The notes under the pieces: model-generated | The model's database searches: none | The model's input: the letters and a program-made list of their open reading frames with translations, nothing else | What the model was told of the DNA's origin: nothing | From: Owenia fusiformis | Lineage: Eukaryota; Annelida; Polychaeta; Sabellida; Oweniidae | Assembly: GCA_903813345.2 (NCBI GenBank) | Contig: CAIIXF020000006.1 | Span: forward strand, 11,166,348-11,230,347 | Direction of reading: 5' to 3' | Length of the DNA: 64,000 nt | Shown here: positions 27,601 to 63,340 of the stretch, one piece after another | Position numbering within the stretch: the first letter of the stretch is position 1 | How the letters are laid out: every line of letters begins with the position of its first letter | Position numbers and translations under genes: made by a program

Positions 27601-30600
27601 AGTCCCACGTATAGATTTTTAAGATCCACCACGTTCAAAAAGAATATCAGGTGAAATAATGTTCATCCAGGGGGTTTCTTTGGAGATAATAAAAATATAT
27701 GATAGCCTGATGAAATATTTAAACTAAATATATTTTGACACTGGTCCATGAACGTTGAATGGCCCCTCTGCACAATTTGTTGCACCTTTAACTTTGGAAA
27801 TCTGATTTAGAAGGAGTCTCAAATAGCTATACAGGTCCAAAGAATTGTGTGGAAGATATTTTTCTTCGTCACAAATATGTAGTTTTTTACGATGATATAC
27901 AGAGAGTTTTTATATCAGGATAATTGATAATGTATAATACCTGTAGTACCATTAAAACTAAATGCAATCTAGCTAACGTCATTATACAGGAAACTAGATC
28001 ACAAAGGGCTTCTGACATAAAAACCAACTTCAGTCTAACGAGAGAATAGTTTGATTAATCAACGCTGGTGCTCTTGCTCTCAATAAGGCGATCACAGGTA
28101 TGATAAATGCTATATTGAACTCGATTGTCCGTGATAAAAACTTCCTATCATGCGAAAAAACAGTATTGCCTTTGTCTGATGATGCTACAGTACTTGAGCT
28201 GCATTTGTCAATTACTCCTCTAGGTATTGTTCAGGGATTCTTGTTCATGTCAGAACTACATTAGTGATGTATTTCCTGTCATATATACACATAATCTATG
28301 ATAAATTGTATTCATAAAAATTCGATCCATGAAAGGTAGAAAAATAAAGGTAACATTTCAAAACAAAACAAGTCCCTGTATTTTTATGTTACTTATTTGT
28401 TCTTACTAATTAATACTACAGTGCTGCACGAAGTATCAACTGCAGAAAATGACATAGAGAAGTTTAAATGTAGGATGGTTAAAATATCCCTTAAAAAATC
28501 ACTAAATATACCTAAATCGACCGCTGTTTCTATTGTTCTATTGTTATGGGGGTCATTGCTGGACGGCTCGATCATTGGTGTCATCAAAGCAGCTGCATTG
28601 CGATTTATTTTCTTGCTCCTATATTTTTTACATCTTGGATGAAATTGTTGCAGTTGGACAACACAAAGTGGTCCTTAAATTCATATATTCTTTACTTCCA
28701 GGCGGGAACGGTTGCAGTTAGACAACTTAAATGGCCCTCATATAAAGGACCACGGAAGGTATCGCAACAGATTTCAGACAGTCATAGGTTGGATTTGGCT
28801 GTTTTCTTATGATTTTAACAGGTACATATGTTAGGCCAATGCATTAACTCCAGGAGAAGAATTCTTAGATATGATAAAATAATTTGTACTTTGAAACAGA
28901 GAATGTGCAAACACCCAGTCTATATATTTTTTCTGAAATGTCCTGATTTTCAACCCTTTCCAAACCTGTTTTCCAATGCTTGATGCATCAATATGTTGCG
29001 TTTTAAGAGACGGTAACCTTTTTAAAGAAAAATTGATTCATGCAAAATAAAGCTGAAAATAATTGATCGCATGAGGTAACTCTGTCTCGAAACGTAACAT
29101 ATTGAATTTATTGATACATCAAAGATTGAAAAAACAGGTGTGGAAGGGGCCGAAAACCAGGACAGCGTTTCAGAAAAATGTGTTTGTGGGGTGTTTGTAC
29201 CTTCCCTGTCTCAAAGTCCAAATTACTTCCATGAGTGCTTGCCCTGGAGTTAATGCATTGGCCTAACATATGCACCTGTTCAAATCCTCAGAAAACAGCC
29301 AAATTCCAACATTTTACTGAATTATGTCTTAAATCTGTTGCAATACCTTCCGAGGTCCTTTATATATTCTTTACTAGGCTGGAACAGTTGCAATTAGACA
29401 ACTTAAATGGCCCTTAAATTCATATATTCTTTACTTCCAGGCTGGAACAGTTGCAATTAGACAACTTAAATGCCCCTTAAATTCACATATTCTTTACTTC
29501 GAGGTTGGAATAGTTGCAGTTGAACAACTTAAATGCCCCTTAAATTCATATATTTTTACTTCCTGGCTGGAACAGTTGCAGTAAGACAACTTAAGTGATC
29601 CTTAAATTCACGTATTCTTTACTTCCAGACTGGAACAGTTGCAGTAAGACAACTTAAATGACCATTAAATCCACATATTCTTTACTTCGAGGTTGGAATA
29701 GTTGCAGTTGAACAACTTTAATGGCCCTTGGATTTATATATTCTTTACTTTCAGACTGGAATAGTTGCAGTTGGACAACTTAATGGCCCTTTAAATCATA
29801 TATTCTTTACTTCCAGGCTGGAACAGTTGCAGTTATGGGGCTCCATCGTTGGTGTTATTGTAGCAGTAGCTATTATATATATATGCTGGAGGAAAGACAA
29901 TTTTTGTGGCACTAAAAAAACATTAAAGGAAAAACTCAAAGATTGCTGTTCTGGAAGGCAAGTACCCCAAGTACGTTTTATTAATTTAGGCATGCTATTC
30001 GCATGGTGGAATAGGTAGGTGGTTATTGACAGTAGTATTGGCATGGACGGAGGGGGTAAATTTCATGTTCTTGATAGTTGTTGTCTATTTAAAGTGTCAC
30101 TTCCTATTGATTTGATCTAATACTATATTCAGAATATTATTACAAGTCAGATGTACATTGATTCTTATTCGAGGTTGATTTTCTAAAATAGGCATAGTCA
30201 TATTACTGTAATATGTTATTATCTCAAAGAAATATACAACCCACGTTTTTATGAACTCTAGAAAAATGAATAACTCAGCAATACACTCCACCATAAATTT
30301 AAACATGCTGCGGATCCAATTCCCATTCAAAGTGGGATAAAAGGATTATTCAAATTGCGCTTGCCTTGATTATGAGAAATCAAACCAACCAGCGCCGCAA
30401 TGAAGAAATAAACAGTAAAAGCATTTAAACATTATACAAGTTGCTCCAATGCACTGAATGCAGTATATCATGCTTTATATGCCATTATCGAAAGAAAAGA
30501 GCAGTGTTGTTAATCCCTCTAGAAATTTATGCCCAGGACACATACTTATTGATCGTTGTAAATTGTTCACCCATTTACAGGTACCAACCGTTTTATAGAT

Positions 30601-43814: not shown

Positions 43815-46800
43815 TCAAGTTTGTTTCATCAGTTTTTTCGGGTCGTATATGTATCTCTTAAAAGCTAGGGAAAGTGTTATAGTCACTTGGGGTTCCTCTG
43901 TGGCAGTTGATGCTTCTGTTGACTCTTTATTCTTACTTTTTCCCTTGGCCTTTTTCTTACTTGTTAGGGCTTCCTTTGTACTAGCCTCAACTCCATCTAA
44001 AATACATCAGTCTTGCAACATTAAAATATTCAGAAATAAAGGTATTTACGGGAATATTATTCTCACTGGACACATTTTATATCATCTTTACATGGAAGGA
44101 TACTGTATTTAGGTGTGAAATCTGAACAAATAAAAGAGCTGAAAATTTTAAATAAATGGCTCTCACATCAAAAGATTTACCTTTTACCATGAAAATAGGT
44201 TTTGACGAAATTAAAAAATGAGATGACAGGATTCTAAATTATATATGAACTATCTAAAAAAGTTATCCCAAAAGGTAAATGTTTGTGTTCTAAGTCAAAG
44301 GAAAACCATATCTCTGCCATGGCAAAATGCAATAACCTTTTGATGTGAGCGCTACCTTTTGACAATGTTAGGTTTTAAAAGAACAAAGTCATTTTGGCAG
44401 AAAAATATGGTCTAAATAGACCACCATAACATGTAGTTTACCACAGACTATAAAATTTAAAGTAAATCGAAATGTAATTATATCCCATTTATTCTTAATA
44501 GATAACATTCAATAAAAAATAGGTCATACTGATAATTACTCATCTCAAACATTAAATTTGCCATTGTACAAAATAGTGAGTGTTGGTTTCACATGTGTTA
44601 GTTGAAATTGTTCACTAATTTTTTTCATTTTTTTCCTTGTGTTACCCCTTATGTTTTACAACTTAACATATACTAAGAAAACAACAGGAATGGTTGCAGA
44701 AGTCTCCCCAGCATAAATGAGTAATGTGCCAACCTATCAGATTTGAGAATAGGATTGTGACATGTTTTGGCCAATTTGTTCAGATTTGAGAAAAAAAAGA
44801 AATTTGCAAATGCTTGAAAACAATTTTAGGGACAAGGCTGCTTTGAGTTGGAAATAATGCATGCTTCAAGGGAGATACAGTAAGATAAGTTCTTTCCTTT
44901 TTTTCATAATGAATTCCACTCTCAAAATGTCAATGATTCAACTGATCAACACTAATTCATTCAATAAATATATCAAACAGAACATCTGTTTTTCAATTGC
45001 TTACTTGGTATTCTGACTTTGAATTTGCCACTCTGTCCAAATCCTCCTTCAATGGTTCCTGACTCCCCAGTTGATAGCGTCACCTTCAGCCCAACGAACA
45101 ACTCAATATTGCTTTCCTTTTTAAACAAGCCACGACATATCACAGAATAATCATCAGCAAGTCTTTCCACAATGCCTTCCTTTAATTTATTTTTGTAAAC
45201 TTTTAACTTAGGAAGAATAGTTTCAGGATATTTTGGATCAGTGATGGCCTCCAGAAGTTGACCATGGAATGCCAAGCGACAGGTATTCGAGTGAATGTCT
45301 GTGTCTAAACGGGAGCCAATCACAAGGCAGTTTCTTGAGCAGATAACAGGTTTTTCAAGTTCGATTAAGGCGTATTGGCAACTAGGTATCAGAGAACTCT
45401 CTTCAGTGCTTCCTTCATTTGACTTTTTATCACCCTTTCCATGAAGTTCATCCATATACAGATACTCCTTTGTATAATCTATGGCTTTAACTGAACCTGA
45501 TGTATCAAAAATATTTTCTGTATTATTACCGATTGGTGTCTCACCAAAGAAAGATACTCTTCCCATTACAGTTTCATGTCCCATGGTGATATGAAATTTT
45601 GCCTTGGTTGAAATGGTCCCTTTAAAGTAGGGAATTTTCTCTACTGAAACAATTGCTGCAATGATTGTTGGTAGAACCCCCTGGGTACAAACAAGGCCTC
45701 TTTCCAGCAGCTTAGGATCAAACTGGGTGACACAAACACCTGCTCTATCACCCTGGAAACATAGAGAAAATAACTCTTTTATGGCATTGTAATCTAATGA
45801 GTTGACGATTCCATGTGAGCCGATGATATCAAATAAAACTCAAATAAAAATTCAATTTTTATCTTCCTTAACAAATTTTCCTGTATTTGACTAAAGTTAC
45901 CTATACTAGTCCTTATAAATATTAAAGCAAAAGACACTGAGTAAATTTCTTGAATGGATTTTATCATGAACAAATCTCTGGTTTTCATAATTACCTGTTT
46001 AATCTTATCTATTGGTTGTTTAAACATCTGCATAGACTTGATCTTCTTAATTACTTTCATGGATGGGATTTCAACAGTCTAGAATTTGGAAAAAGCATCA
46101 CATTAAGCTACATATATAACAGTGATCTGACATCCTCTGATCACAGGGCTTCAAAATCCAGAACATATTCTTTCTTTTTACCCCTGCAATAAGCAGTTAC
46201 CATTTCCCCGATTAAGAACTCGCAATCTGATTGGCTGTCGCAACACTGCGACAGAAATCATGTATAAGTCATTGCGCATAATTAGATCACGTGATTCAGT
46301 TAAATCGGGCGCGTCCAAATTGATTATAGCAGGGGGAAGAAGGAGGTACGGATTCTGGACACCTGCTTAGGAGGATGGTGATCTGATCACCTAATGATTT
46401 TTCTCAACAGTATGCAAAATCCTATTTTTAGAAAATCCTATTATTTTACCATTTTGGCAAGCTGCATTAAGAATTTCAACATGGTGATATGTATTTTTCT
46501 GCAAACGTTTGAAACAAGTAATGAAAAACTATACAATATAAAAATAAGTCTTTTAATCTTTATTCCTCATGATTATGAAAATGATAAATACATTTATTCA
46601 ATAATATTTATTATTGCACTGTATATTTGCACTAACTCACATCATTGACAGCAATGCTCCCATGCAGAACAGTCCCAGTCATAACTGTCCCCTGGCCTCT
46701 AATGGAGAAACAATGGTCGACAGCAAATATAAAGTCCCCCTCAGGGCTACGTTGAGGCAGATATGTGTTCAGCTTCAGTGTGTCTATGAGTTCTTGAACT

Positions 46801-49800
46801 CCCATACCTTCAGTGTCTGTTCCCTGGAAAAGATCATGAACTCCATTTGTTGACCTGTGCTGTGTGAAATTCAAATATGTTTATAAAGTCTCTTAAGCAT
46901 AATTATTAAAATGAAATACATTTGTACTGGACTTTTTTAAAGCTGTGGAAAATTAATGTTTCAGTGTTTGTGAAGTATTTTCCATAACTATGCAGTAATG
47001 TTTGAAAGATATCATAAGTAATATGGAATAGATGCTATTAATAAAAATTTGACATCTCTAAAGATAACATTTAATAACTCAAAAGCTTTTAAAGTATTGA
47101 TTAAATCAAATAATTAAAGTTAAGTTATTTTAAAGGCAAGACAACTGTTCTGAAGATAATTGATAAAAGCTATTTCAGGAACTGTAACTTGCATATGTGC
47201 ATGTACATTTACACTGTACATGTACTTATACAGTACAGGGTGGGCCAATAAAAATTGGAACATTTTTCTATTTATTCAATTTTCTTTATTATTGCAGTGA
47301 AGTCCACAAATATTCAGATAATGGTAAAATGATTATTTGTGAAAATGTTAAGATAAAAATGTGTATGTATGATTATTTTTGGCTAGTATTGGTCATGATC
47401 TGTATACTGCGTGCGTCATGAAAAATTTCCAAATTTTCTCTGCTTGAGACATCATTTCTGAAAAAACAGTATCTCATACCATACAATATATGCCCTTCAA
47501 ATGGTCTCAACACAATCTACATCAATTAAAACATATGTAGTTATCTCTAAGAGAAGCTAGACATGTCTCCCTTGGATAATATAGGTTAACTGGCCTCAGT
47601 TTTTTTCAAAACTGGCACAATATGGCTCAAAACCTGTCATTCAACCCATGCATAACTGTCAAATACAGCCCAGACTGATTGTTCAGGTGAGTGGGGGACA
47701 TGTTCAGTAATTAAACATTGAGCTTGTTTATTGTATTGTATTGTATATTTATTTACCTCTAATTAATAACAAACAAATATAATTTAAAACATGTTGAATA
47801 AGTGAATAAATGAAATAAGAAATCTATAGTTAATAGACACCGCTATAGTAGAGATCAAGACCATCTTCCCATCTTATTCATATTTACACAACCTGTTGAC
47901 AATGAACTGTTTTTAAATTTCTCAAAGTATTGAAGATAATACAAGACAAACCAAAGAAAAATCAATGGAAAAATGTTCCAGTTTTTTTACTCAACGCAAG
48001 GGTTTCCTGAACATGTCCTCCGCCCACCTGAACAATCAGTCTGGGCTGTATTTGACAGTCATACATGGCTTAATTGACAGGTCTTGAGAAAACTACACAT
48101 GTTTTAATTGATTGAAATTGTGTTGAGACCATTTGAAGGGTACATATTGTATGGTATGAACAATACTGTGTTTTCAGCAGTGATGTCTCAAGCAGAGAAA
48201 TTTCATGACACACGCAGTATACAGATCATGACGATGACAAGCCAAAAATAATCATACATACATATTTTAAACATTTTCACAAATAATCATTTTACCATTA
48301 TCTGAATTTTTGTGGATTGAACTGCAAAAATAAAGAAAATTGAATAGAAAAATGTTCCAATTTTTATTGGCCCACCCTGTACATGTACCACAGCATATTT
48401 GGTACAGCTTGATTTGTAGTCATATATCATATATACCTCAGGTCCACCAGGCTTGGCTGCCACAGGGACAATTGGGCATCCTGCAAATTTTGTATTCTTC
48501 AATGTCATTGTCATCTTTTTCTTCATCTACAAAACCAAATTTTCATTGTCAAATCTACACCAAAATGACTTCATACCCAATACCATGTAATTCCATATGG
48601 GTGTCAAAGATAATAAACACACAAGAAATTCACATTTATAATAAAGTTGAAGTTTTTGCCTCAAGTGTTCATGAGATATAATGACTGAATAGTGAATGTT
48701 TTCTCAGAATGTTTTTCAACTTGATGCAAAAATTCCATCAGAAATAGAAATAGTATCTACAATTTTTTAACTTAAATGTAGCTTTCATGTCATCATCTTT
48801 CAAATGCAGCTCTCATGACACTATAATGGAACTCTAATGTGATATAAATGCAAGCAACTTATAGGCAGAAAAGAACGTGTTTTGAATTGCCAATTGGAGT
48901 CAGATAACATGTCAGGTATACAAGAAAGTTCCCTTAAACTTGAATATTCATCTGTTCATTTGAATCAATTTTCATAATACCCTTACATGATTATCTGATA
49001 GTTGCACAAATGAAAATATGCCAGAAACACAAAACAATATCAGTCCAATAAAATTAAAGATATTTCATTTTTTGTAATTTTATAACATGGGGTCTATGGG
49101 GGATCTCCCTGGGCTTTAGTCACACTTTCTAAGAAATTAATATTCAAAATAACAAACAATTTTTAACCACATTTCTAGATGTAATTTTACATGTAGATTT
49201 CAAAATATAATATCACTTTGACTGAATTTTGAAAATTAAGTGATTTAGTGAGATTATTTCTACTCACATCTAGTCTATTGGATTTAAACTAGATCAGCTG
49301 AATTATCTCTCATACAAGTATGTAGTGTAGACAAAGTTGACCATAAGCAAAGGGCAATACCTTTTCTACTGTTGCCTCTCTCTTTGCCTCTGGAATCAAG
49401 TCCACTTTATTGAGGACGACAATCATTTTATTGCATGCTATCTGACCAATGACAAGACATTCTGCTGTTTGAGTTTGCATCCCCTTGACAATGTCCACCA
49501 CAAGAATCATAAGATCTATGATCTGTGCACCTGGAAATCAATACATAATCAAAATTAAATAAATACTTTAGTGATATTTAATTTGACGAATTTATGGTTA
49601 ATATGCATTTAAGAATAGAATGTAAGTTTTCCATCCAGGATGAAATCAAACCTGGAGGGTAACATAGAATAAACCCTAAGGATAATGTTGGTTAAACCTT
49701 TAATAGATAATATAACATGTCGGATTAATCCTGAAGGACTGGGATTTATCTAGTGGATACCAGGGAATTACATCGAGGAATTTTACAAGAAGATCATGGT

Positions 49801-50961
49801 GGGCATTGCACATCATTAAGGAAGACAAAATGTGTAGCCAACTTGTGTGGGACACAATAAGACAACCTCGATAATATTATAGGAGGATATCATGGGATAA
49901 ACCCTGAAGGTGTCATGATATGACTACATAAATTGCAAGTCAATGATGTCAAAGAAGAATCACAGGTAGGATTCATGGGATAACCTCTGATGGACATTTT
50001 TTGAAAGTACATGTATGTTTTTATAGACATCCTGCAGCTGGGTCAATAAGTATATTGAATCGTATACCACAGACACCAGAAGAGATAGTACAGTTGTCTA
50101 AAAAGAAAATGCCCCCCCCCCCACTCTGTGTACCAATGAAAAGTCTGGGGACAATCACAATGACCTGCAGGAATCCCTCTATATAAAAAATTATCATAAA
50201 TATATATTATATAGAGTATAGTAAATGTTTTATACAAACATCATACACATATCATAAGTGATGAGCATAGCAGGGTGGCGATTGGTGCGCCCCCCCATGA
50301 CTTATAAATTAATAAAGCAACAATCGCACCCTCCATTTGGATTTGCTTATGCGTCGATCGCACCCCTGCACCGCCCCCCCTGCCTGAAAGCTGACTACAC
50401 CCCTGCATATGATATCTGCAGGCCTGTCGACTTGGGAACACCTAAAATAAGTGACTCACAAATGTTGGTCCAAATCTGAACACCTTGGTCCAAATTTGAA
50501 GCAAATGCATGACAAATACGCAATATGGGTGAAAATCCTGAACAAATTGTTGTGGGACAGTTGACAGGCCTTTATCTGTGACCACAGGAACGAGAGTTCA
50601 TCCCCTCCCCCCTCTCACTACGTACCTATGTACAGTGAGGGGGTTGAACTGTTGTTCCTGGGCCTGTAACAGTGTCACATGATCTACCTCCTATAATTGT
50701 CCTTATCAGTCCTGCATGTCCTGGGCAGTCAACTAATGTGTACTGTAACTGTTCATGACCTCCCCCTTGTAAATGTTCTGGAATTTCTACAGTGAAACTT
50801 GAGAAACCCAAATCAAGTGTTATTCCTCGTTCTTTACTCTGTGGATTTTTGTCAAAACTTGCTGTACTAGCTACTGTGCTCAGCGCCTTGGATAGACTTG
50901 TTTTACCACTATCCACATGCCCTAAAACACCAATATTGAAATTCAAAATATTTTTAGCCAT
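43815..50961 (-). CDS. EEFSEC: Selenocysteine-specific elongation factor (eEFSec)
   Basis: Complete gene with seven coding exons: 50961-50688, 49530-49361, 48526-48437, 46823-46641, 46078-45995, 45752-45005 and 43996-43815. All are GT-AG in agreeing phase, giving 576 residues (human about 596). eEFSec carries Sec-tRNA to the ribosome and, with SECIS-binding protein 2, recodes UGA. The GTPase domain shows the P-loop GHVDSGKT (residues 14-21), QSKERGITLDLGFS, DCPGH and the NKVD motif in VVLNKVDLIPE. Later domains contain VDHCFSIRGQGTVMTGT, KVIKKIKSMQMFKQPI and the eEFSec-typical TCRLAFHG. The Sec-specific C-terminal domain IV follows: ADDYSVICRGLFKKES, FGQSGKFKV, a Lys-rich linker and LAFKRYIYDPKKLMKQT, matching human LTFKRYVFDTHKRM. 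An in-frame ATG four codons upstream (50973) is an alternative start. Intron 3 holds a 1.1-kb foldback element. Confidence 0.95.
47236..48379. mobile_element. TA-flanked near-palindromic element in EEFSEC intron 3
   Basis: An 1144-bp element bounded by TA at 47234-47235 and 48380-48381. The left end CAGGGTGGGCCAATAAAAAT equals the reverse complement of the right end. Arms of about 380-480 bp are inverted copies almost to the centre: TTTGAAGGG/CCCTTCAAA, GGTCTCAACACAAT and CAGCCCAGACTGATTG/CAATCAGTCTGGGCTG all pair. They leave an unpaired core of about 47720-48000, and the left arm has roughly 100 bp that the right lacks. The right end lies 57 bp from the exon 3 donor. No transposase remains. 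Confidence 0.85.
50267..50408. repeat. Short G/C-rich-ended repeat
   Basis: Sits in EEFSEC intron 1 and is bounded by GGTGCGCCCCCCCATGA on the left and CACCGCCCCCCCTGCCTG, then GCTGACTACACCCCTGC, on the right. It resembles the CTGGCTACGCCACTGG and CTGACGCCCC ended repeats in VHL intron sequence and at 19.7-20.0 kb. Class unknown. Confidence 0.4.
50420..50570. mobile_element. Internally deleted copy of the 6434-6940 element
   Basis: Starts GGCCTGTCGACTTGGGAACACC and ends GGGACAGTTGACAGGCC, the same inverted ends and subterminal sequence as the 507-bp copy at 6434-6940. It includes TCCAAATCTGAACACC and CATGACAAATACGCAA. The poly-G centre is missing. It lies in EEFSEC intron 1. Confidence 0.75.
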
Positions 50962-51060
50962 GTTGCAATACATGATGACCCACTTAGCGAGTGCGCATGC
51001 GCCAGTTCTACTTCCTGAGAGTAAAGTGAGATTTTGCTGAATTTCTCGTTATTATTTAGA
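50962..51060. promoter_or_regulatory. Divergent EEFSEC / short-transcript promoter region
   Basis: Relatively GC-rich sequence with GCGAGTGCGCATGCGCCAG (contains the palindrome TGCGCATGCGCA-like core, an NRF1-type site) just upstream of the EEFSEC start. CTACTTCCTGAGAG, a pyrimidine-rich possible start site, points the other way. The NRF1-like reading is inferred from the CGCATGCGC core only. Confidence 0.4.
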
Positions 51061-56262: not shown

Positions 56263-59200
56263 ATGCCAAGCACAATATTTAGTTTTGCTGAGGTGGATGT
56301 CATCAAACTTGTATCAGAATTCCTTCAAAACAGGGACTTGAACATTTCTATGTTATCACTTGAGCGTGAAACTGGGGTGATAAATGGAGTCTACTCAGAT
56401 GATGTTTTGTTTCTCAGACAGTTAATTCTTGATGGACAGTGGGATGATGCTCTTGAGTTTATTCAGCCACTTGGCAAGGCAGACAGCTTCAACTTGAAGC
56501 TGTTTATGTACTTGATTCTGAAGCATAAATATCTAGAGTTACTATGTTTGAAAGAGGAGACAGGAAACCATGAGTTCACAGTTGACGAAGTTGTGACATG
56601 CTTGAATTCGCTAGAACAATATTGTCCTAATAAGGAAGATTACAGTAATTTATGCTTATTATTGACATTGCCAAAACTTTCTGAGCACCATGACTACCAA
56701 AATTGGAACCCTAGCAATGCAAGAGTACAATGTTTTAAGGATGTATATCCATTGGTTGAAATGTTATTGAATGACAGAAGAGCGGAACATGCAGTTGCAG
56801 TATCGAAAAATGACAGGCTGATTCAATTATTGATCAAAGGATTGTTATATGAATCTTGTGTTGAGTTCTGTCAAAATAAAGCAACAAGCTCGGATTCAGA
56901 TTCCAGTAAACTACAAATGTCAACTATTTTGAATGGAACTGGATTTAGCGATGCTGACATGAGCTTGTTATCCTGGCTCCAGAGTATCCCGCATGATACA
57001 TTTGGATGTCCATTTGAACAAAAAATGTTAAACATTGACATTAAACCACTAGAAAAACCTTCTCTTGACGCATCCTGGTCAGAGCAAATCTTGGTGACTC
57101 CCATAAAGCCAAAGATGTTTCCGCACAGTGCAGTTCCAACATCAAGACCACGCTCTGCAGAGTACATGTCTCGATCTATGATCCCACAATTTGAAGGTCT
57201 TGCCCAGGGTCTTTTACAAGGCAGGGCAGATATATTCAACAGATCATCACCAAGCAGCAATCCTCTTTCGCGATCCTATCATAACGCCAGCTTTCAGTTA
57301 AATCCTACTCACGCTCCACAGAAGCGTGACATAATGAGCACTTCTATTGACAAACTTTTCCAAACATCTGAGTATATAGATACTCAGTGTAATGTCTCGA
57401 GTGAATTTGAAAACACTCCTCCTAAGCCATATCCAAAGATGCCAACACAGTCTGTCACCCCACCCCAGAGTCCCAGATCAAAACCTTCAGAGAAGTATAA
57501 CACATCCCCTGAAAAGGGTTATAACAATGGAAAATCGACACCAGTTCAAGCAAACACCCCACAATCTTCCATGAAGGAGAGCATGCATGATTCAAGTGCT
57601 GAGCTGTTCAAAGAATACCAGAAACAGAAGCTGAAACTCCAGGAACAGCTAGCGATGCAAGAGAAACAACGTTTGGAGATGCAGAAGCAACTTTTAGAGA
57701 TGGAGATTCGAGAAAGAACCAGCATCGATGACACACAGTTGAATAACAGTGCAGAAATGTATACATCATACAATTCAAATATCAAACTTGACAACCAAGG
57801 TATGTTCCCATTAAGCTGCCTTAATTTTGATTTTTTTTGCATTAAAACCTTTATTTTCCTATCTCTGTGGGGGTTAACATGGTTAAAGGGTCGCAAAACT
57901 ATTTTTGAGTCTGTGACCCTTTATTGTAAACTCTTCCTTAATAAAAGTGCTTACATGTAGTACATTTTTTGAAGAGATCGAGTTATATTTAATTTTTAAA
58001 ATAAATTGCTACACTGTATTTTCAATCATTGATTTTCTCTTGTATTTATTGAGGGAATATCAACAACTGCTTGCTTGCTATTTAAAGATTATTTCAACTA
58101 CATGTGCCACAATTATTTTCATATAGATATTGATAGATAAATTAGGCATCATCTACATTCAATTCTTCATGTAATCAGTTTTCCTGTGGGTGGAAGGTTT
58201 CGTTAACTTAAAAGTTTAAAACCTTTAAGAGTACCTTTTTGATTAAAAAAAATTCCAAAATGGCTGTTTAGTTGTAGCAAAGACAGGAAGATGGGTTAGG
58301 CGTGACATAGATTACTTGAAGAATTTAGTGTGAATGTTTTAAGACAACCTCAATTATTTTTTGAGATTAGCACTTGGTGTTTTGAACACATGACTGTATT
58401 ATATGTATTGTTTTGTCTTCATTATTATCCCAACGAACGAAGTTCGTTAGGGATATAGTGAAGCCCTCCATCCGTCTGTCCGTCAGTGTTTCCATGGACT
58501 AAAACGTTAAACCCACCTATGCCCAGTCACAAGCCTGAGGAACCTGCTTTTATATCTAATGTGGATTTTTATCTTACCAATCATGACTTAAATATTAATA
58601 TGGGTATTTCCTATAATTAATATATACTGGATTTTAACTTACCAAATATGACTTCAATATTAATATGGGTTTAAACCTATAATGTATTAAATACTGGATT
58701 TGATAAGTAAATAAAATCAATTATAATCTACCTATATGATGTAGATATCCAAATGTTGGTCTGAATTTATCTTTGTGGAAAGATATTGTATGCTTCAGTT
58801 GCTCTTTAACAAAACATGTGGGACAGTGTATCTATATATTACAAGATGTCCGTCAGTCAGTCAGTCTGTCCGTCTGTCCGTCTGTCCAGAAGATAACTCA
58901 AATACTAGTTGACAGATTTTCTTCATATTTAGTGGAAAGATGTATATTGGTGAATAGTTTTACGCAATAAAACGATTTTTCAAGATGGCCGCCGCTTTAA
59001 AAATAACGGGACTTTTTCGCAAAAATCATAAATTTTTCATTCTCAACCAAAGTAATTAATATTATTGTTTGAAATTTTGGTAGTATATTCACAACATTTA
59101 TCTATTTCACATATATTCCGTGTTTTTCATCCTGACCCCCAGGGGCCATGTATGGGGGGTCAGGAAAACAAAAATTTTCGCTAATTTTTAGATCTTTCTG

Positions 59201-62049
59201 AAGTATAGCTTTATTATACTCAAATGAAAGGCAATTAAGAGTAAATCGCAAATATTGTATCTTTTTTCTGATTCGAGCCTCGTAAAATCCAAAATGGCCG
59301 TCTAATGTACGATTTCGCAATAATTTTTCGATCCCTTCAAAGTATGGCTATATTATACTCAAATTGAAAGAATTTTGGAGTAAATCACAATTATGGTATT
59401 ATTTTTCAGATTTGTACCTCAGAAAATTCAAAATGGCTGCTTTGCAGGAACTCGCAATTCTAAAATCTAATTTTTTCATTTTCAACCAAAGTAATGAGTA
59501 TAATTGATTGGAATTCGGTAATTGATATTTTGTTCGTTGGGATTTGCTACTCCGAGGAGTTGCCGTTATCTAGTTGTCCATGTAAACTGTATGTTGTGTG
59601 TCATATTTTGCTTGTTTGTTGATGTTTACATAGAAATGCATGCTTTGCACTTGAATATTTATGATTTTAGCCCAGACACACGCATCTCCAACATCAATGC
59701 TTGAACATTTAGAAAAAGGAGACTATTTCCAAGACACCCTCGATAAAAACTCCCCCGTCCTAAATCCTACAGTGCCAACACAATCAAAACACCTTGATCT
59801 CACATTCAGTCCTGCCAATCTACCCATCCATGGGGTCAAGAAGCATTCTGAGAAACACTCAGCTTTTGCATCCCCCGTCCCTGGTTCTGACCCCCAAGAA
59901 AAATTCTCTGATTCACCAAACGCCATAAAAAACCTTCAGAAATCATTTGAAGATGTGGAGCATGAAACGGAAAATACTCAAGAAGTTGAACTGTGTTTAA
60001 AAGATCTCAGTTCTGATTTAAACAGAGGTTTGTGCTTATTTTTATGTTTTTCCTGTTATCACACACACTTATCTACAGTATTTTTACTAAGTAACATGTT
60101 CTATATTTTCCTCAAAGTTTTTCTACATCTATTAGATACTTTTTACATTCACAATCAACTCTGCCAAATGTTTAGGTGCTTGCTGAAATAACTATACATT
60201 CTTATTAGTAAATCATAAAATCTCAAAAATTGAACCATTCATACATCCTTGAAGATTTCGATTTTGAAAGGATTGGTATCGATATGGTGAACTGAATTCA
60301 ACAATGTTTTTCTCTAAAACCAATTATTGAAAACGCTCTTTAAAAAACACGGTCCTTTATGTAATGTTTACTGATTGACAACAATTGAATGTGGAATTGA
60401 TTTATGCCGATTTTATATCACTGTTTTTGTTAACATTTTTTGTTTTTTAGTGCAATTGTTTTTTGTTCCTTTCTACCAATTCTTGAGAATGAAATAAAAT
60501 ATCTTTCCAAACCTTGTTGGAACAAAATAGCATATACAACATTTTTAAGACCTCTCAATATTGAAGTTATACAAGGGACATTTTGGTTGATTTAACAAAA
60601 AGTATTCAAAAAATTTAAAAAAAAAAATAGATAAAAATTAAGATAAACCTTTTACTTCATTAAAAACACGTTGTGTTTATGTCATTTTTTACCAATGAGG
60701 TTCGGATAGATGTTACATTTCATTCCGAACATATGATACCAAGAACAAAAGAAATGTATGTTATGTTTTCTAAAACGATATAGAGAAAAAAAATTTTCAA
60801 ATTACATTGTTACCATTCAAAAGATGACCATTAAATTGACGATGTGTAAAAATTTCAGAATTTTTTGATGATGGGTTTAAGAGAAACATGTGTTCAATAA
60901 GTTCACCATATTGAGTAGGAGTAGTTAATAGTTGTGTTTGTATGCACTCTAGATTGTATTGAATTTATTGTAATTATATGCACTCTGTTAATCTGTCTAT
61001 CTGTTCCCTTTAAGGCAGGCCAAGTAAAATAATTCATTTAAAAGTAAATGCATTTGGCCTTCCTTAATCTGCTTCTGTGTTTGAGATTCTTTCTCAACTG
61101 TTAGCGTTTAAATCAGTGATATTTTATTTATTTTCCGTCCATGTGCAGCTAGTAAAGTAAAATCGGGCATTACTATGAAGCCTGTAGGAGCGAGTCCTAA
61201 AGTGATGCCTCGCAGAAATCCTCTGTCTCTGACAGGTTAGATGTCAACATATCTGCATGCATAATCCCAATATATACAGTACATGATGTTTCATGATGAC
61301 CCCCCCCCCCCCATTAATTATTACCAATCCTTATATATATGTTATATATCATATGAAAGCTCTTTCAATTTTGGACTTATTGAAACAACTTTAACTAAAT
61401 TAAGTAGCTTTTACTTCTTGTAACGGAAAGAGAAGCATTTTCAATTATGGGATACATCAGAGTTTATCCCTCGGGATATATGGGTATCTCCCCCAGTCTC
61501 TGCATTTCATCGGGGGATCACAAATATTTTTCATTGTGATAAATCCTTTATCCCGAACCCCAAACTTTTATAACTATATCCCTTATGCATCTTCTTTTTC
61601 AAAATTAATTATGATAAAAAAATTCTTCTCGCACATTATTGCCTTTGGATCACATATGATTGAACAGGAATACTTTAATATCTGGTCATTATTTGAGTTA
61701 TGAAAATACAATGTATATTGTATTAAACCTCTCTACTCTCTTGGTTATCTTTAAATGTTATTCTTTACCAAGAGGTCAATTTTCAAATTTAGAAATTGTA
61801 AAGCATTTAAATGTAGCACTGTTAGCACAGATTTCACCCTGTGTTTTTTTATGAACAAACACTCAATTGTTCTGTATACTTTGATGCCTTTTACGAAGGT
61901 CGTCATCCAAAATGGATATTCATAAATCTGGTTTACTTCCAGCAACGCCAGTGAAGAGTGAGGTAGAGAATAGCAGTCTACATATGTCACACCTGGACAA
62001 CACTAACATACCTGAAGCATCCTCACCAAGGGTCACAACTCCAAGGAAG
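56263..62049 (+). CDS. WDR47: WD repeat-containing protein 47 (N-terminal half; runs off window)
   Basis: WDR47 (nemitin) is a microtubule-associated protein that stabilises microtubules in neurons and cilia, in part through CAMSAP proteins. Coding exons seen: 56263-57799, 59671-60027, 61149-61235 and 61943-62049 (phases 1, 1, 1, 0). The N-terminus carries the LisH/CTLH region: VIKLVSEFLQNRDLNISML, SLERETGVINGVYSDD and [20 protein letters not shown] align with human WDR47. EYCPNKEDYSNLCLLLTLP, NWNPSNARVQCF and LIKGLLYESCVEFCQNKAT follow, then SLLSWLQSIP and FEQKMLNI. After that comes a Ser/Pro-rich linker and a Gln/Lys/Glu coiled coil (FKEYQKQKLKLQEQLAMQ). The C-terminal WD40 propeller is not in this window. 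The last visible exon ends in VTTPRK at a GTATGTG donor that opens a nine-copy 126-bp array. Start is the first in-frame ATG matching the family. Confidence 0.93.
58428..59543. mobile_element. 1.1-kb TIR element in WDR47 intron
   Basis: Ends ATCCCAACGAACGAAGTTCG (left, itself partly palindromic) and AATCCCAACGAACAAAAT (right, reverse complement). Inside lie a GTCCGTC/GTCAGTC microsatellite (about 58850-58890) and repeated segments containing AAATGGC(C/T)G and a TTCAACCAAAGTAAT block. Related GTCCGTCTGTC sequence occurs near 36100 and 36390. No coding capacity; family not assigned. Confidence 0.65.
60266..60913. mobile_element. TIR element, long copy of a two-copy family
   Basis: Left end AAAGGATTGGTATCGATA then TGGTGAACTGAATTCAAC; right end in reverse complement TGGTGAACTTATTGAACACA then TGTTTCTCTTAAACCC. 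It matches both ends of the 370-bp element at 26042-26411 in opposite orientation but keeps about 280 bp more of AT-rich interior. It lies in a WDR47 intron. Confidence 0.75.
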
Positions 62050-63058
62050 GTATGTGTATCTTCAATTTTTAGAATTTCGCTCCCTCCCCCTCTTGCTATC
62101 TCTTGTACCTAATATCAATGTGGTAACACAAACATGCATGAAACATCCTCACCCAGGGTCACAACTCCAAGGAAGGTATGTGTATCTTCAATTTTTAGAA
62201 TTTCTCTCCCTCCCCCTCTTGCTATCTCTTGTACCTAATATCAATGTGGTAACACAAACATGCATGAAACATCCTCACCCAGGGTCACAACTCCAAGGAA
62301 GGTATGTGTATCTTCAATTTTTAGAATTTCTCTCCCTCCCCCTCTTGCTATCTCTTGTACCTAATATCAATGTGGTAACACAAACATGCATGAAGCATCC
62401 TCACCAAGGGTCACAACTCCAAGGAAGGTATGTGTATCTTTGATATTTAGAATTTCTCTCCCTCCCCCTCTTGCTATCTCTTGTACCTAATATCAATGTG
62501 GTAACACACACATGCATGAAGCATCCTCACCAAGGGTCACAACTCCAAGGAAGGTATGTGTATCTTTGATATTTAGAATTTCTCTCCCTCCCCTTCTTGC
62601 TATCTCTTGTACCTAATATCAATGTGGTAACACAAACATGCATGAAGCATCCTCACCCAGGTTCACAACTCAAAGGAAGGTATGTGTATCTTCAATTTTT
62701 AGAATTTCTCTCCCTCCCCCTCTTGCTATCTCTTGTACCTATTATCAATGTGGTAACACAAACATGCATGAAGCATCCTCACCAAGGGTCACAACTCCAA
62801 GGAAGGTATGTGTATCTTTAATATTTAGAATTTCTCTCCCTCCCCCTCTTGCTATCTCTTGTACCTAATATCAATATGGTAACACAAACATGCATGAAGC
62901 ATCCTCACCAAGGGTCACAACTCCAAGGAAGGTATGTGTATCTTTGATATTTAGAATTTCTCTCCCTCCCCCTCTTGCTATCTCTTGTACCTAATATCAA
63001 TGTGGTAACACAAACATGCATGAAACATCCTCACCCAGGGTCACCATTCCTAAGGTAT
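62013..63058 (+). repeat. 126-bp tandem array carrying 5' splice sites
   Basis: The junction AGGAAG|GTATGTG occurs with GT at 62050, 62176, 62302, 62428, 62554, 62680, 62806 and 62932, exactly 126 bp apart; a degenerate ninth (TAAG|GTATGTA) is at 63055. Each unit holds CATCCTCACC(A/C)AGGGTC, then ACAACTCCAAGGAAG (the 3' end of WDR47's exon), the donor, and intronic CTCTCCCTCCCCCTCTTGCT. Units are nearly identical. The exon frame meets TAA (TGTACCTAATATC) in every unit. Confidence 0.95.
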
Positions 63059-63062
63059 GTAT

Positions 63063-63340
63063 AGGGTGAAGGGGTATAACGTCGACACCATTTTGGGGGA
63101 ACTTCGACATATGGGGTAGCTTCGACACCTTGTTGTTTATTTGCTCTAATTTCTGATAGTAGGGGGAAGCCATGTTTTTTCTCGCATGGATTGAGATATC
63201 GCAAAATTTTATTTTTCCAGAAATCAAACATGGCCGGAAACGGAAATTCTAAATTCTAATAAGTAAGTGTCAAAGTTTCCCCATTTCTCATGTCGACATT
63301 ACCCCACACATAGATGTTACACCCCTTGGCCCTACTACAG
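63063..63340. mobile_element. Short TIR repeat with GTCGACATTACC-type ends
   Basis: Left end AGGGTGAAGGGGTATAACGT followed by CGACACCATTTTGGGG. Right end in reverse complement GGCCAAGGGGTGTAACATCT, then GTGGGGTAATGTCGACATGA. The ends are imperfectly inverted over about 50 bp. It directly follows the 126-bp array in the WDR47 intron. Confidence 0.5.

Follow-up and report, generated by a model that had tools for sequence, protein, structure and literature searches.

A nine-copy splice-donor minisatellite at an exon boundary of WDR47 in the annelid Owenia fusiformis, probably a neutral intronic array

The human gene IFI6 (6-16, G1P3) reportedly carries a splice-donor minisatellite, described by Turri, Cuin and Porter in 1995. 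The units of the IFI6 repeat are 12 nt long and extend the exon in frame. Downstream repeat units of the IFI6 minisatellite serve as donors (PMC4526556), in human genes of segmental duplications variable internal tandem repeats at exon-intron boundaries change splicing (PMC2812944), introns were gained in Drosophila from a tandem-duplicated AG/GT proto-splice site (PMC2891723), and intron gain by tandem duplication is also the subject of another study (PMC4974935). Here, we describe a 126-bp tandem array from the annelid Owenia fusiformis, in which the end of exon 3 of the gene WDR47 and the adjoining splice donor are present in nine copies. The array is located on the forward strand of a 64,000-nucleotide stretch of contig CAIIXF020000006.1 (positions 11,166,348 to 11,230,347), called the window below. 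Positions are counted from the window start, also in the DNA that follows it (L002), except those prefixed L002, which are counted from the start of that piece (L002:525 is 64525).

The closest known case is the donor minisatellite of human IFI6, and the WDR47 array resembles it in being a minisatellite that offers multiple donors. However, the unit in WDR47 comprises 126 nt, and every extension of the exon to a further donor meets a stop instead of continuing in frame. Donor use has been reported for IFI6, whereas the WDR47 array is known here from its sequence alone. The repeats of human segmental duplications share with the WDR47 array the expansion of a minisatellite at an exon-intron boundary, where it can alter splicing; they belong to recently duplicated human genes with transcript support (PMC2812944), whereas here a single WDR47 gene is described from genomic DNA only. 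As in the gain of introns from proto-splice sites, each unit contains AAG/GT, so that a splice between donor n and the AG in unit n+1 would take out exactly one unit. In contrast to that process, the duplicated WDR47 segment already held a real donor and intron, and the AG adjoining GT scores poorly as an acceptor in units 2-8 (30.9-52.0 percentile; 92.4 in copy 9). Such an array in WDR47 was not found in the titles and abstract starts among the literature matches listed, and one may still be in print; the word WDR47 was absent from the microexon matches listed.

The open frame from 56263 encodes WDR47, as the preliminary description had stated. A stretch of 505 residues in it, at 56266-57780, matches the WDR47 chains of PDB 7wej and 7wek (E-values of 1.4e-96 and 1.5e-90), and it matches the Pfam family WDR47_COR (PF25602; E-value of 1.5e-30). 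Mammalian WDR47 has been tied to microtubules and cilia. The exon boundaries (Table 1) were placed according to reading frame and splice consensus and not from transcripts. When exons 1, 2 and 3 are joined to six WD40 exons by way of an exon at 68954-69652, the frame stays open for 1231 codons (counted from codon 2), up to the end of the WD40 part; the last seven exons of this model lie in L002. Splice sites were scored with a mammalian-style weight matrix, which allows only a rough ranking: several of the accepted junctions have low scores, among them the acceptor chosen for exon 5 (68954-69652; 24.8 percentile), the start of which is uncertain, with better-scoring AGs nearby. A retrocopy of WDR47, which would show the spliced mRNA, was not found; exon 1 and a large exon of the gene span (Table 1) gave one match each in a search that can miss weak matches.

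Table 1. Coordinates of WDR47 exons, array units and adjoining features, counted from the window start.
Feature	Coordinates	Strand	Remarks
WDR47 exon 1 (N-terminal LisH/CTLH part)	56263..57799	+	donor CAAG/GTATGT; ends in phase 1; 5' boundary need not be the transcript start
WDR47 exon 2	59671..60027	+	phase 1 to phase 1; boundaries placed by open frame, splice consensus and in-frame join
WDR47 exon 3	61943..62049	+	boundaries placed likewise; ends AGG AAG, phase 0
Unit 1 (alpha)	61999..62124	+	51 nt exonic and 75 nt intronic, with donor 62050; from TRF and donor spacing
Units 2-8	62125..63006	+	seven complete 126-bp copies; donors 62176, 62302, 62428, 62554, 62680, 62806, 62932
Copy 9 (omega)	63007..63061	+	partial edge copy; donor 63055; 3-nt deletion relative to unit 1
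Acceptor-like AGs of CACCCAG	62155-62156 (unit 2), 62281-62282 (unit 3), 62659-62660 (unit 6), 63037-63038 (copy 9)	+	
Dispersed short element	63062..63334	+	about 273 bp; terminal inverted repeats; MITE-like; abuts the donor of copy 9
Large coding exon in WDR47 gene span	64525-65495 (L002:525-1495)		971 nt

The array spans 61999-63061. TRF reports it as one array at 61999-63044, with a period of 126, 8.3 copies and 96% matches, and the nine GTATGT starts listed in Table 1 confirm that the exon end and its donor were copied nine-fold. The left edge is at 61999, 14 nt further left than the start at 62013 given previously, whereas the exact 126-bp spacing over eight copies holds for all seven distances between donors 62050 and 62932; the last distance, before 63055, is 123 bp. 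Each unit consists of 51 nt that are the same or nearly the same as the exon 3 end, followed by 75 nt of intron. The last 51 nt of exon 3 form the first, alpha, copy of the exon-like part, and only the donor of this copy is continuous with the known exon, as had been noted. The copies follow each other head-to-tail, begin inside the exon and contain an intact donor each, as expected of a splice-donor minisatellite. A search of the assembly (498 Mb, 525 contigs) with one unit gave nine matches, all of them in the array, although weak matches can be missed. Nine of the eleven AAGGTATGT words on the forward strand of the 84 kb examined lie inside the array, which is beyond chance.

The ninth copy has the donor ascribed to it, but it is an edge copy, which has the 3-nt deletion and three more changes close to its exon-like end, and a dispersed element begins right behind its donor. 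The inverted repeats of this element (63062-63083 and 63313-63334) are 82% alike, and at least 39 further near-full-length places with 87-89% identity were found among the 40 scored of 361 candidates. Homology of the DNA behind the element to the intron part of the unit was considered and rejected (score of 7 versus a shuffled mean of 8.1, p 0.94).

Units 2-8 differ pairwise by 3.6% on average; unit 2 is identical to unit 3, and unit 4 to unit 8. The units are nearly identical, and their homogenisation was therefore recent, in line with the preliminary description. The first and last copies, alpha and omega, differ in the exon-like part at eight sites and by one 3-nt indel. All seven inner units agree with omega at sites 6, 12 and 14 and with alpha at sites 39, 41 and 48, and are mixed at sites 19 and 30. 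Unequal exchange between two copies that had diverged would be expected to leave this distribution. Based on it, an order of events can be proposed. A segment spanning the junction of WDR47 exon 3 and the adjoining intron would long ago have been duplicated in tandem, leaving two copies, which then diverged: alpha, the present exon end, and omega, the present last copy. Unequal exchange between alpha and omega would have created a hybrid unit, the amplification of which would have produced the seven near-identical inner copies. We infer that a two-copy stage came before the amplification. Third codon positions account for five of the eight differences between alpha and omega (one-sided p 0.088), and the sole indel, the exact gap place of which is ambiguous, is 3 nt long; the third-position bias and the length of the indel give a weak hint that omega may once have been coding.

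All nine array donors have the same matrix score of 4.83, which corresponds to the 98.9 percentile among the 4479 GT of the forward strand of the 84 kb, equals the score of the exon 1 donor and is slightly under those of the exon 8, 9 and 10 donors. Thus, as judged by score, nine equivalent donors stand in a row. The suggestion that the downstream donors are usable alternatives did not fare as well, since the extension of exon 3 to each of donors 2-9 ends at one shared stop, 20 codons beyond exon 3, in all eight cases. Splicing from donor 1 yields the open WDR47 frame of the joined model. Because donor 1 alone gives a plain full-length frame, WDR47 pre-mRNA would be spliced mainly from this donor, and donors 2-9 would be intronic decoys that cause, at most, occasional truncated and decay-prone transcripts.

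Constraint on the units, including their copied coding part, is not visible. Among units 2-8, 5 of 51 sites vary in the exon-like part and 6 of 75 in the intron-like one. Selection on the array donors was not detected either: the donor sits in a 21-nt gap free of variation, which is matched by 42% of random placements. We consider it likely that the array is a neutral or near-neutral intronic minisatellite, which originated from an old duplication at the exon 3/intron junction of WDR47 and was amplified later. Nothing observed calls for a function, and the array is probably neutral. Several points count against this reading: the weak hint of a formerly coding omega, four downstream acceptors that score like accepted WDR47 acceptors, five of 18 combinations of array exons that stay in frame, the incomplete gene model at the large exon, and the nominal excess of splice junctions in local duplications (both below).

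The acceptors in question are the CACCCAG sequences of units 2, 3 and 6 and of copy 9. Their scores of 3.35-4.17 (97.4-98.5 percentile of 4397 AG on the forward strand of the 84 kb) are comparable to those of the accepted acceptors of exon 3 (4.04) and exon 9 (2.96). Units 4, 5, 7 and 8 have CACCAAG in the same place (score of -0.23; 87.6 percentile), and ATGAAG, which occurs only in units 4-8, scores -7.3 to -4.8. Potential microexons would be 19 nt long from CACC(C/A)AG (16 nt in copy 9) and 32 nt long from ATGAAG. All of the short exon-like stretches end in a donor, and those of units 2, 3 and 6 and of copy 9 alone begin at an acceptor that is strong in this matrix. The earlier proposal that an AG before the copied coding part makes each unit a possible microexon has therefore sequence support in these four of the eight downstream copies, but not in the other four, which lack a good acceptor.

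Reading frames were followed through ten chosen combinations of 19- and 16-nt exons with the large exon and ten without it. Six of the 20 combinations run to the normal end; array exons are present in 18 of the 20 and in five of these six. Without the large exon, the normal end is reached by three of ten combinations, which contain no array exon, three 19-nt exons, or two 19-nt exons and the 16-nt exon. A single 19-nt exon shifts the frame, with a stop 8 codons beyond exon 3, and when only the 16-nt exon of copy 9 is included, the stop comes after 4 codons, so that single microexons are not borne out for transcripts that lack the large exon. With the large exon, one, four or seven 19-nt exons lead to the normal end, again in three of ten combinations.

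Regular use of some of donors 2-9 or of the microexons would truncate WDR47 transcripts or target them for decay, and the length of the array could then tune the level of WDR47. The nine high-ranking donors, the CACCCAG acceptors, and the stop introduced by all eight extended exons and by the copy-9 microexon alone are in favour of such a switch, and human IFI6 offers a precedent for the use of downstream repeat units as donors (PMC4526556). However, the units show no visible constraint, and units 4, 5, 7 and 8 have no strong acceptor. We regard this explanation as unlikely.

The frames also allow a different arrangement, in which 19-nt array exons shift the phase so that the 971-nt exon is read in frame, whereas the short form stays in frame with none or three of them. 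With 0 in-frame stops versus 21 and 63 in the other frames, the large exon is clearly coding; it is rich in charged residues and gave no Pfam match. The acceptors found at its start have phase 1 or 2, out of phase with donor 1; among the phase-0 AGs within 64521-64800, the best one has a score of -1.07 and is located inside the coding stretch. Since no good acceptor at the start of the large exon fits the phase of donor 1, the gene model is incomplete there. The combinations that reach the normal end with and without the large exon agree with a phase switch, but the phase-1 acceptor of the exon is weak (64.0 percentile), strong acceptors are present in only four downstream copies, and unit 6 has private changes within its 19-nt stretch. 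Moreover, ATG ATG is located close to the start of the large exon, so that the exon may begin a transcript of its own. We give this arrangement very little credence. It is equally improbable that the array is a counting device, in which the number of 19-nt microexons modulo three picks between a short linker form and a form with the extra exon of about 320 codons; were this true, isoform choice would be tuned by array length and unit type. Multiplication of the copies by the assembler, which the identity of unit 2 to unit 3 and of unit 4 to unit 8 could suggest, is hardly credible in view of the ordered pattern of private or shared variants across the units, although the precise number of copies may not be correct.

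Repeats of several kinds occur at other places in the DNA examined. At window positions 29362-29835, a 63-bp array (TRF 7.6 copies, core motif eight times) contains repeated copies of a sequence that resembles a 3' splice site (TTTACTTCCAG then RCTGGAACAGTTGCA). It precedes an open frame that includes a segment resembling a membrane span, as a mirror image of the donor array; the AG is lost in one copy (CCTGG), and two copies have CGAGG. A second copy of the WDR47 exon 9 acceptor (TATATTCCCAG then GTCACATCTA) stands 93 nt upstream of it (L002:7380-7600), and another WDR47 junction is therefore locally duplicated. A perfect 27-bp array of 4.1 copies (L002:1498-1608) starts from the third intron base behind the large exon, and the next WDR47 exon contains a 45-bp coding minisatellite of SSPTNLRPHSPRKE-like repeats (L002:5259-5494). 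The neighbouring gene on the minus strand (window 44973-51048) resembles the selenocysteine elongation factor EEFSEC in its sequence.

We compared 27 splice junctions, 20 from WDR47 and seven from a minus-strand neighbour, with 2045 sampled positions, which include the arrays themselves. At a score threshold of 28, three junctions (the exon 3 donor, the large-exon donor and the exon 9 acceptor) lie in local duplications versus 117 sampled positions, the expectation being about 1.5; the counts are two versus 111 at a threshold of 30 and one versus 81 at 40. Within the gene span alone, 7.0% of 696 positions are in local duplications at 28. The acceptor array at 29.4 kb, which belongs to a gene without a model, was left out of the 27 junctions and would be a fourth hit. 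A special tendency of tandem DNA toward splice junctions is not clearly favoured, as three of 27 is nominally above 5.7% but the number is small.

If the downstream donors of the WDR47 array are used, the locus would be a natural experiment on donor choice by the splicing machinery, with nine donors of equal score at 126-nt intervals. If they are unused, it would be a clean case of an exon boundary copied many times without harm, the history of which may be read as a two-copy ancestor, a hybrid unit and its amplification.
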